Part shown: piece by piece, positions 45,215 to 48,740 of the stretch
Layout of the letters: the number at the start of each line of letters is the position of its first letter
How positions within the stretch are numbered: the first letter of the stretch is position 1
Source: Alphaproteobacteria bacterium
Lineage (GTDB): Bacteria; Pseudomonadota; Alphaproteobacteria; M2410
NCBI GenBank assembly: GCA_030614785.1
Contig: JAUWTJ010000014.1
Span: 1 to 60,891, forward strand
Direction of reading: 5' to 3'
DNA: 60,891 bases
Translations under genes and position numbers: made by a program
The notes under the pieces: generated by a model
The model's database searches: none
The model's input: only the letters and a program-made list of their open reading frames with translations
What the model was told of the DNA's origin: nothing

Positions 45215-45736
45215 ATGAGTACGACCAGTAGTGCACAGATGATTGGCGGAACACCGCAACAAGAGCCGGACCTCGGGGAACTCAAGGTCAGCTATCTCAA
45301 GGCGCTTGATTTGATCGAAAGGCTTCACCGGCAACTTCTTGATGTTATCAAGGACGACCTGGAACGCAGCGGCCAAACGGATATCAATGCGGTTCAGGCG
45401 TTGCTTCTGTTCAACATTGGCGATTCTGAATTGACTGCCGGCGAACTGAGATCGCGCGGCCACTATCTGGGATCCAATGTTTCCTATAATTTGAAAAAAC
45501 TGGTCGAAGCTGATTACATTTTCCACAAGCGTTCGGAATCGGACCGACGGTCTGTTCGGGTTAGTTTGACACCCCAGGGCCGTGATGTCTGTGATCGCAT
45601 CGCCGCACTTTATGAACGCCATACCAAGTCTATTTCGGAGATCGGCGGCGTCACCAGCGATGATCTGGAAACCATCATAGTGACGCTCGGGCGGCTTGAG
45701 CGGTTCTGGACAGATCAGGTTCGATACCGACTTTGA
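45215..45736 (+). CDS. ldtR: MarR-family transcriptional regulator (LdtR-like)
   Basis: A 173-residue winged-helix regulator. ALLLFNIGDSELTAGELRSRGHYLGSNV is the recognition-helix region, and KLVEADYIFHKRSESDRRSVRVSLT is the wing (DxRxxxxxLT). The C-terminal helices close the dimer and the protein ends RFWTDQVRYRL. It resembles LdtR of Rhizobiales, which controls L,D-transpeptidase genes for cell-wall remodelling and stress tolerance. The start is the ATG at 45215, giving MSTTSSAQ; the frame to 45158 is leader. It is followed by a strong terminator. The last codons and terminator are repeated at 47823-47909. Confidence 0.85.
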   Translation: MSTTSSAQMIGGTPQQEPDLGELKVSYLKALDLIERLHRQLLDVIKDDLERSGQTDINAVQALLLFNIGDSELTAGELRSRGHYLGSNVSYNLKKLVEADYIFHKRSESDRRSVRVSLTPQGRDVCDRIAALYERHTKSISEIGGVTSDDLETIIVTLGRLERFWTDQVRYRL

Positions 45737-45786
45737 GTCTTTGTTGGTAGCTTAAGCGTAGAGGCCTCCTTTCGGGGGCCTTTTTC
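45700..45786 (+). repeat. ldtR tail repeat, copy 1
   Basis: 87 bp covering the last codons of ldtR, its stop and the terminator. It matches 47823-47909 at 78 of 87 positions without gaps; the last 38 bp of the pair are identical. Copy 2 still encodes R-F-W-A-D-Q-V-R-Y-R-L-stop when read in the ldtR frame. Confidence 0.85.
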
Positions 45787-46168
45787 TTTTGTGGATCATG
45801 GAGAACAATCTGTCTCTTGATCCGGTTGTTTGAACCTGCCAGTCTTCGCAAAATAACGGCGTGGCGCATTTCGCACCATGAGCCAGCTAATTGTACACTG
45901 TCCCCGGGTTTCCGAAGCCTCAAACCGCGCCCCCGGGGCAGGCCGAAAAGGGAAGATGATTAAATGTATACTGTCCCCGTATTTCGTGGGGACAAAGCGG
46001 CTCACGGCATCGTTCGGTTTTCAGGGGATAGATCGGTGGGCAGGTGCGATCAAGCGGCCAAGGATGGGGTTGAAGAGTGCATCATTGTCTATCAGTGCCT
46101 AATACTTGATTGAAGGAGCCGAAGCCATGATCTCCGACCTGGATCTTCCATCAGTTAAGGAGCGTCGA
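45737..46168. other. Non-coding left flank of the REP-transposase element
   Basis: 430 bases with no gene. They hold the ldtR terminator, then two forward copies of the element's repeat: AATTGTACACTGTCCCC at about 45889-45905 and ATTAAATGTATACTGTCCCC at 45959-45978. A hairpin GTCCCC-gtatttcgt-GGGGAC lies at 45973-45993. Confidence 0.6.
45752..45790 (+). terminator. Rho-independent terminator of ldtR
   Basis: AGGCCTCC-tttc-GGGGGCCT forms a GC-rich stem (core 45762-45781) followed by TTTTTCTTTT. It begins about 25 bp after the ldtR stop. Confidence 0.88.
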
Positions 46169-47047
46169 ATGTCCAAATTTGCACTCCTTGCCATTGCTCT
46201 CGCTTTGAGCAGTTGTTCGATGAACTTCGCAACTGTTCAAGGTAAAAGGGCGGGACAGCCGACAGAAGTCGCTCGGGAAGGTCAGATCGGTGTCCTTGAT
46301 GGGCCGGTTGCGGATGTCACCCATTCGGCGAAATCCAAACCGCCCGCTCTCCGGAGAATACGGACGAAGGATCTGTGGGGGGATGACAAGGGTCGTCCTG
46401 CAAACTTGTACAAGTTGACCATGGATCAGTCTCCCATTTGCCAGCGGTTGCTTGGAGCGCTCAACCAGCGCATCCCTCGATCAGACTTCAAGTCCTATCA
46501 AATTAAGTCAACCGGCGACCTCTTCCTTCGTAATGATTTCAGTTTGGCTTGGGAGCCATTGATAGTACCTGACGCCCATGGAGAGGTTCCTTATCATCGT
46601 CTTGGTACGGCTGACCTCAATGGCAACGGGCAAAAGGAGTGGCTTGTCCGTGAGTCACAATTGTCTGGCCTCGCTCCTGGCTATACGGATGAAATCTATT
46701 GGGTCGACTCTGACCCCAGGCTCTTTCCTGGGATTGGACTGTACCAGGCAATACACGGTTTTCCACCGCCAGGGGCGAAACTCTCTTGGCCTGGCAATGC
46801 TGTAGTTCCATATGGCGTAGAAAATTATGGATGGCAAAGGGAAAATCCTGCTGAACATTGGGTGGACATCGTAGGGATTGATGGGCGTGGATACTACCTG
46901 TCAACACACCCCCGACAAGACGCCCTCTACCAACAACTGCATGTCAATTTCTACCAAATAGCGGGAAAGCAGACAGGCAAGAAAGTATGCAGTCTTTCGA
47001 CAATCGACGAGTTTTCCGAACTGACGACATATGGAGTTAAAGAATGA
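46169..47047 (+). CDS. Putative lipoprotein, function unknown
   Basis: A 292-residue protein beginning MSKFALLAIALALSSC, a clear signal peptide with lipobox LSSC, so it should be lipidated and membrane-anchored. The body contains LGTADLNGNGQKEWLV, an FG-GAP-like calcium-loop pattern, and Trp/Tyr-rich stretches (VDSDPRLFPGIGLYQAIHG, VENYGWQRENPAEHWVDIV). I do not recognise the family. AAGGAG lies 6 nt before the chosen ATG. It is bracketed by inverted repeats at 45959-45978 and 47175-47194, suggesting it is cargo of the neighbouring transposase element. Confidence 0.7.
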   Translation: MSKFALLAIALALSSCSMNFATVQGKRAGQPTEVAREGQIGVLDGPVADVTHSAKSKPPALRRIRTKDLWGDDKGRPANLYKLTMDQSPICQRLLGALNQRIPRSDFKSYQIKSTGDLFLRNDFSLAWEPLIVPDAHGEVPYHRLGTADLNGNGQKEWLVRESQLSGLAPGYTDEIYWVDSDPRLFPGIGLYQAIHGFPPPGAKLSWPGNAVVPYGVENYGWQRENPAEHWVDIVGIDGRGYYLSTHPRQDALYQQLHVNFYQIAGKQTGKKVCSLSTIDEFSELTTYGVKE

Positions 47048-47228
47048 CGCTGGCAAATTTACAAGTCCAATCAACAGATTATAGCAGCCAACTCATATTC
47101 AAAACGGTTATCACTAACACGCTGGCGACAGACTATCAGACGGCGCGCAACAATTATTTGAAAGCGTGAAATTCGGGGACAGTATACATTTAATTGACAT
47201 GCTGGTGTGACACAGACATCATATCGTC
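47048..47228. repeat. Spacer with third copy of the element repeat
   Basis: 181 non-coding bases between the lipoprotein and transposase genes. GGGGACAGTATACATTTAAT at 47175-47194 is the exact inverse of 45959-45978, and it recurs with two changes at 47740. Confidence 0.7.
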
Positions 47229-47693
47229 ATGGCAAGACTGGCTCGATTTGTGGTTCCCGGGTTTCCGCATCACGTGACCCAGCGTGGTGTGCGGCGCATG
47301 GATGTCTTTTCCTGTGATGACGACTATCGCGCCTATCTTGCTCTTCTGAAGGAGAGCTGCGACAATGCCGGAGCGCAAGTTCTGGCCTATTGTCTGATGA
47401 CGAACCATGTTCATCTGATCCTGGTCCCGTCTACGGAAGACGGTCTGCGCGCCGCTCTCGGTGAAGCACACCGTCAGTATACGCGGTTGATCAACTTTCG
47501 CGACAAGTGCCGTGGCCACCTGTGGCAGGAACGGTTTCATTCCTTCGTTATGGACGAGGCCCATGTGTTGGCCTGTGCGCGGTATGTCGAGCTTAATCCT
47601 GTGGCAGCAGGCATGGTCAGACGAGCCAGGGACTGCAGATGGTCCAGCGCACGGGCGCATCTGTCAGGTCAAAACGATAGGCTGGTGTGCTAA
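47229..47693 (+). CDS. REP-associated tyrosine transposase, C-terminally frameshifted
   Basis: A 154-residue Y1/IS200-like transposase. The catalytic HUH motif is NHVHLIL, the N-terminus RLARFVVPGFPHHVTQRG is diagnostic of RAYTs, and the nucleophile Tyr is in CARYVELNPVAAGMV. The frame stops at TGC-TAA. Moving one base restores the usual C-terminus: PLLSRAPDWAGFLKAGD, which runs into the downstream repeat and stops at 47774-47776. A single-base indel near 47688-47692 has therefore truncated the protein after its catalytic core. It may still bind and nick DNA, but is probably impaired. The ATG gives MARLARF. Confidence 0.85.
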   Translation: MARLARFVVPGFPHHVTQRGVRRMDVFSCDDDYRAYLALLKESCDNAGAQVLAYCLMTNHVHLILVPSTEDGLRAALGEAHRQYTRLINFRDKCRGHLWQERFHSFVMDEAHVLACARYVELNPVAAGMVRRARDCRWSSARAHLSGQNDRLVC

Positions 47694-47822
47694 GCCCGCT
47701 GCTGTCGCGGGCTCCGGATTGGGCCGGCTTTCTGAAGGCTGGGGACAGTATGCAGTTAATTGACATTGCAGCATGAACCTGCGGAATTTTCCCTGTGGCA
47801 AGAATGGCAAGGGCGGTTCTGG

Positions 47823-47909
47823 GCGGTTCTGGGCGGATCAGGTTCGATACCGGCTGTAACATTTTGTTGATAGCTTAAGCGTAGAGGCCTCCTTTCGGGG
47901 GCCTTTTTC
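47823..47909 (+). repeat. ldtR tail repeat, copy 2
   Basis: 87 bp matching 45700-45786 at 78 positions. Read in the ldtR frame it gives R-F-W-A-D-Q-V-R-Y-R-L-stop, so it is a true copy of the 3' end of ldtR (or of a paralogue) without the rest of the gene. Confidence 0.85.
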
Positions 47910-47914
47910 GTTTT
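47875..47914 (+). terminator. Terminator belonging to the ldtR tail copy
   Basis: Same stem-loop as at 45752-45790 (AGGCCTCC-tttc-GGGGGCCT then TTTTTCGTTTT). No intact gene precedes it. Confidence 0.8.
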
Positions 47915-47984: not shown

Positions 47985-48740
47985 ATGCATCCCTTTCTTG
48001 AGTTTAACGGCTTTCTGGCTTTTGCCCACAGGGGCGGGGCCGAAGAAGCGCCGGAAAATACTATGGCGGCTTTTCAGGCTGCGGTTAAGCTCGGCTATAG
48101 ATATCTGGAGACAGATGCCTATACGACGTCCGACGGGGTTCTTCTGAGTTTTCACGATACGGTGCTGGACCGTGTAACAGACCGGCAGGGCGAACTTGCT
48201 GCGCTGCCTTTTGACGAGGTCAGGAAGGCTCGAGTAGCCGGGCGTGAGCCGATCCCCTTGATGGCCGAGGTGCTGGATGCCTGGCCGGATGTTCGCATCA
48301 ATATTGACCCGAAAGTGGATAGTGCCGTGGAGCCGCTGATCGCGCTCCTCAAGGATATGAATGTGCTGGACAGGGTGTGTATCGGGTCGTTCTCGGCGGC
48401 CCGGATCAAAGCCTTTCGGGATGCTTTTGGCGATCGGGTTTGCACGTCAATGGGGCCCGGCGAAACGGCACGCCTGAGAGCTGCGGCTTTCGGGCTGCCT
48501 GTTGGCCGGTTTCAGGCCAATTGCGCGCAGATCCCGATCAAGCGACACGGGTTGACCCTTGTTGATCCCCGGATGGTTCGGGCGGCCAATCGCAGAGGCA
48601 TCCAGATCCATGTCTGGACGATTGATGATCGCGGCGAAATGGAGCGGTTGATTGATCTGGGGGTTCATGGCCTGATGACAGACCGGCCAAGCCTTCTGAA
48701 GCAGGTTTTAGAGGAACGCGGGATCTGGCGGAAATCGTAG
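47985..48740 (+). CDS. ugpQ: Glycerophosphodiester phosphodiesterase
   Basis: A 251-residue enzyme that splits glycerophosphodiesters (deacylated phospholipids) into sn-glycerol-3-phosphate and an alcohol. The catalytic FAHRGGAEEAPENTMAAF and YLETDAYTTSDGVLLSFHD motifs hold the His pair and Glu/Asp metal ligands. VHVWTIDD near the C-terminus is the barrel-closing segment. There is no signal peptide, so it is cytoplasmic. ATG start at 47985 with AAGGATCAT upstream. It stands alone between the RAYT element and hemA. Confidence 0.9.
   Translation: MHPFLEFNGFLAFAHRGGAEEAPENTMAAFQAAVKLGYRYLETDAYTTSDGVLLSFHDTVLDRVTDRQGELAALPFDEVRKARVAGREPIPLMAEVLDAWPDVRINIDPKVDSAVEPLIALLKDMNVLDRVCIGSFSAARIKAFRDAFGDRVCTSMGPGETARLRAAAFGLPVGRFQANCAQIPIKRHGLTLVDPRMVRAANRRGIQIHVWTIDDRGEMERLIDLGVHGLMTDRPSLLKQVLEERGIWRKS

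Follow-up and report, generated by a model that had tools for sequence, protein, structure and literature searches.

A probable decayed TIRtron cluster behind ldtR, with an orphan lipoprotein gene between its units

TIRtrons, REPtrons and a truncated transposase

TIRtrons are IS200/IS605-like single-strand transposable units of about 0.8 kb, in which a Y1 HuH transposase lies between TIRs of the GGGGWSAS type. The enzyme was described as a "TIR-associated tyrosine transposase" (TIRYT), with GGGGWSAS as its TIR motif, by Di Nocera and co-workers in 2013 (PMC3733652). Their paper and PMC6006769 set the TIRYT repeats apart from hairpin REPs, and most TIRYTs fall in subclass 2.1 (PMC6006769). The genes of RAYTs, or REPtrons, have abundant palindromic REPs on their flanks (PMC2817692), and the related REPtrons seem not to transpose as a unit (PMC6006769). 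Also known is homology-facilitated illegitimate recombination (PMC3240628), which leaves scars with one homologous side, one side joined at a microhomology and foreign DNA between them.

The stretch of DNA analysed here (the window; 60,891 nt of an alphaproteobacterial contig) contains a 2.1-kb block behind ldtR, which an earlier note had read as a RAYT element with a lipoprotein gene as its cargo. We think, with a probability of about 0.7, that the block is a decayed TIRtron cluster that was fixed behind ldtR as a recombination scar, the lipoprotein gene lying between units. The locus represents, in degenerate form, an already known kind of element, and the scar is neat rather than surprising.

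The transposase gene (47229..47693, + strand) is a pseudogene recognized by Pfam PF01797 (E 7e-11) and by tblastn with full-length homologues, whereas the NCBIfam model REP_Tyr_transpos gives 69 bits, under its 80-bit cut-off. Its translation contains TNHVHL and RYVELNPV, which are the HuH and Y---NP motifs. Codons 1–153 are intact, a 1-nt frameshift follows at codon ~154, and the frame can be recovered to about residue 172; the last ~50 C-terminal residues are missing in the tblastn comparison with full-length homologues. In agreement, hmmsearch scores 271 bits over positions 1–157 of a 223-position model, the related transposases being mostly 218–234 aa long with, in the TIRYT relatives, a C-terminal extension of ~50–70 aa. 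The RE of this copy is missing too, so that the window holds no intact LE–transposase–RE unit with a C-terminal extension. The window TIRYT is a degenerate member by descent and not a working unit.

The GGGGWSAS motif, the lack of hairpins and the low copy number of the repeats lead us, from sequence comparison, to class this transposase as a TIRYT and not as a REP-associated RAYT. The locus resembles the TIRtrons of PMC3733652 by its Y1 HuH transposase with HVH and Y---NP motifs, and by its non-palindromic GGGGACAG TIRs at short distance from the gene (54 nt from the start), in dimers or clusters and few per genome. Unlike a TIRtron, it has REs and LEs left from more than one unit, and the 2.1-kb block includes an orphan ORF and lies between two copies of the ldtR 3' end. 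With the RAYTs or REPtrons (PMC2817692) it shares a homologous transposase (the REP_Tyr_transpos score and a weak match to 4er8) and repeats beside the gene, but neither palindromic GTAG-headed REPs nor an abundant genomic repeat family; in place of palindromic REPs in inverted orientation, repeats that form no hairpin lie directly repeated on either side of the gene. From the earlier label, the RAYT-like Y1 transposase with cognate repeats can be kept, whereas the REP nature of these repeats has to be dropped.

Order and orientation of the terminal repeats

The core repeat GGGGACAGTAT occurs exactly at 45968-45978 (−), 47175-47185 (+) and 47741-47751 (+), and a copy with one mismatch, GGGGACAGTGT, lies at 45895-45905 (−). 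These four matches within one mismatch compare with 0.48 expected in the window, and no shuffled sequence reached four. The inner pair (45959-45985 and 47168-47194) is inverted and 27 nt long, with 96% complementarity and an uninterrupted match of 21 bases, and the right-hand pair forms a direct repeat of 26 nt at 92%. The earlier note had these facts right: four copies, two per orientation and at the places it gave, a perfect 20-bp match in the inverted inner pair, and a direct repeat on the right. None of the repeats forms a stable hairpin, and the DNA folds no better than shuffles. Searching the genome for more copies, as that note had suggested, added only one exact copy in 3.86 Mb (C32:49120-49130), which gives five copies, four of them in the window. 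A REPIN population was rejected, the repeat being nearly absent from the remaining genome.

The meaning of these repeats depends on their orientation. Homologous transposases were drawn from relatives and GTDB genomes and their flanks compared. In 46 of the 61 full-length homologues (6 of 122 shuffled controls) the gene lies between the arms of a 14-mer inverted repeat that differ at no more than two positions, in the order LE(+)–transposase–RE(−), with the LE typically 30–140 nt before the start and the RE just past the stop. None of these 46 bracketed units has an extra gene inside its paired ends.

Compared with such canonical units, the two left repeats of the window are of RE type: one at 45888..45912 (GGGGACAGTGTACAATTA on the minus strand) and one at 45959..45985 (−), the inverted partner of 47168-47194. 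The two right repeats are of LE type: one at 47168..47194 (+), whose GGGG lies 54 nt 5' of the transposase ATG, and one at 47741..47766 (+), a direct repeat of 47175-47200. The resulting order is RE, relic–RE, lipoprotein, LE–transposase, LE–stub, and among the window repeats there is no LE…RE pair around the lipoprotein gene. Four repeats do surround both genes, which is what had suggested a RAYT element with the lipoprotein gene as internal cargo bounded by repeats. This arrangement is, however, the reverse of a bounding LE…RE pair, the transposase is broken and the repeats are not REPs, so that we give this reading almost no credence. Since the LE or RE orientation of each repeat decides the unit to which it belongs, bracketing by repeats alone does not show cargo, and we regard this as a useful negative result.

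Behind the ldtR terminator there are at least two, and probably three, partial TIRYT copies. The first consists of a probable 3' relic and its RE, the second of the frameshifted, truncated transposase and its LE, and the third of a ten-codon 5' stub and its LE. The stub (47795..47821, +; V-A-R-M-A-R-A-V-L) opens with a GTG exactly 54 nt past its LE and ends after about ten codons, cut off at a copy of the ldtR 3' end. The candidate relic (45919..45963, +, frame 0) reads LKPRPRGRPKREDD followed by a stop codon that abuts the RE. With ~14 codons it is weak by profile alone; it has a counterpart with its own RE at C32:49065-49137, which shows 84% DNA identity to 45913-45985 over 73 bp (E 1.6e-14) and whose longer frame resembles TIRYT C-termini (E 0.005, also weak by profile). 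LKPRPRGRPKREDD is probably what remains of a transposase C-terminus. The C32 copy is a solo relic with an RE, no transposase being found beside it. Two further Y1 transposases, which belong to different subfamilies and have GGGGTCAG-type ends, are encoded in the same genome at C28:32875-33297 and C23:46187-46612. Both frames are open; the latter runs into the contig end and has, 5' of the gene, an end formed by an adjacent inverted dimer.

A duplicated ldtR 3' end around the block

The block lies behind a complete ldtR gene for a MarR-family transcriptional regulator (45218..45736, +; NCBIfam NF047395, 257 bits against a cut-off of 250). The repeat finder returned a 94-nt direct repeat with 88% identity that encloses the whole 2.1-kb insertion, i.e., everything reported before. 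Its left copy (45697..45790, +) is the ldtR 3' end with its own intrinsic terminator, and its right copy (47820..47913, +) is the 3' end of an ldtR allele (RFWADQVRYRL and stop) with a terminator. The earlier description of the locus as four repeats, a transposase and a lipoprotein ORF is correct in its parts, and missed this bracketing repeat. A dispersed terminator family was rejected as its source, the genome having otherwise only ~20-nt matches to the stem.

In relatives, ldtR lies directly 5' of the genes for glycerophosphodiester phosphodiesterase (GDPD) and hemA. GDPD forms the conserved right flank of the window block (47985..48740, +; PF03009, syntenic in relatives), and the right ldtR 3'-end copy is located ~128 bp 5' of it, at the native distance, the ldtR–GDPD spacing being 116–200 bp in three relatives (loci L042, L043 and L045 of genomes G001, G002 and G006). 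Some 2.1 kb upstream of the right copy lies the complete ldtR, which has a terminator of its own. In these three relatives ldtR, GDPD and hemA are adjacent with none of the 2.1-kb block between, and conservation extends to the upstream mcm gene in G001.

Outside the join overlap, the coding differences between the two ldtR 3'-end copies are synonymous or an A/T swap (RFW[AT]DQ), both residues of which occur in relatives, and the terminator stem is unchanged. The pattern is thus that of two orthologous alleles, diverged by 12%, and not of a drifting fragment. Moreover, codons 7–9 of the transposase stub share a ~9-bp microhomology, GCGGTTCTG, with the ldtR 3' end, and the join, which the assembly places at 47821, falls there.

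These observations suggest that the block probably became fixed when the chromosome recombined with DNA from a related lineage in which the cluster was already present. On the left side, there would have been homologous exchange in or upstream of ldtR, and on the right side illegitimate joining at the ~9-bp microhomology, leaving behind the second, 12%-diverged ldtR 3' end. A left homologous crossover combined with a right microhomology joining would explain the locus in one event. The likeness to the scars of PMC3240628 is in the homologous side, the microhomology-joined side and the foreign DNA between; unlike in that work, the window event is inferred from the sequence, as are its donor and parental alleles. 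The reconstruction likewise covers the identity of the donor lineage and the order in which the events took place, and a local ldtR duplication could be an alternative source of the right junction. Besides, the duplicated ldtR 3' end lets one read, on a small scale, how one-sided homologous exchange may fix a degenerate insertion cluster.

The orphan lipoprotein gene and the case for mobility

The ORF between the inner repeats (46169..47047, +) encodes a predicted lipoprotein of 292 aa with the lipobox LSSC and is preceded by an AAGGAG ribosome-binding site. Overlapping its stop (ATGA) is a 41-aa ORF with weak coding signal (47044..47169, +), which ends exactly at the LE and may be the truncated second gene of an operon. 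The codon bias of the lipoprotein gene is 0.07, against 0.25–0.34 for its neighbours, and the fold predicted without an alignment is uninformative (pLDDT 31).

No relative of the lipoprotein was found in 142 related genomes, 399 genomes of the phylum and 385 of the class (overlapping sets), nor was there a match in GTDB contigs, IMG/VR, plasmids, phages, Pfam, NCBIfam, PHROGs or PDB. Two class-level matches (E 2e-5 and 0.005) were discarded as artefacts, one consisting of tad-pilus-like genes read through stops and the other of the antisense of a uppP-like gene. The earlier note had proposed searching for the lipoprotein with or without the transposase elsewhere; no homologue of either kind was found anywhere searched, and hence nothing shows that the lipoprotein gene moves. 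Judged from the order of the ends, we take it to be an orphan trapped between separate insertions and not a passenger inside one.

The lipoprotein gene might also be a lineage-specific native gene of the ldtR–GDPD interval, into which the relics were inserted later, with the ldtR copy arising by local tandem duplication. REP-type repeats are, according to PMC3733652, predominantly downstream of coding regions, and the interval is used elsewhere for different genes: in the relative G012 (L182, 5553-7813) it is filled with L,D-transpeptidase-like and DUF1295-like genes, as read by eye from the translations. We nevertheless think this origin unlikely, because none of the three family members has the gene, nor do the other relatives and the genomes of the phylum that were searched (all from other genera), and because most differences in the ldtR fragment are synonymous, as they would be in an orthologous allele but not in a local copy drifting neutrally.

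A different possibility is a composite TIRtron, in which two TIRYT units in direct orientation flanked and moved the lipoprotein gene and lost their outer halves by later decay. The order of a transposase 3' relic with RE, the lipoprotein gene, and an LE with the 5' part of a transposase, both parts on the + strand, is what such an element would leave, and the 21 consecutive matching bases of RE 45959 and LE 47168 fit halves of identical units; the orphan status and weak codon bias of the passenger would fit too. Against it, two complete flanking units are required whose outer halves are absent, the block is single-copy with neither an intact composite nor a second copy in the genome, and the lipoprotein has no relative anywhere searched. 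In addition, no cargo was seen in the homologous paired-end units, and in the related REPtrons transposition as a unit does not seem to occur (PMC6006769). We therefore consider such a composite structure quite improbable, and actual mobilization of the orphan gene by two directly repeated TIRYT units very improbable indeed. If true, it would be the first passenger known to us for this transposase class.

Some homologous loci have ends worth recording beside those of the decayed cluster. At L121 (about 1137-1970), two TIR-like repeats separated by 836 bp enclose a class III cyclase-like ORF but no transposase; the ORF was not counted as cargo, the repeats being self-complementary solo copies of which the right one is degenerate and a poor match. 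Two family members (L031 on G003 C35, and L016 on G002 C84) have a MITE-like mini-dimer on each side of the transposase, with LE and RE ~57–75 bp apart. End arrays occur as well: five REs within ~140 bp after the gene at L123, two REs at L014, and, ahead of the gene at L018, a 27-bp LE-like unit present three times.
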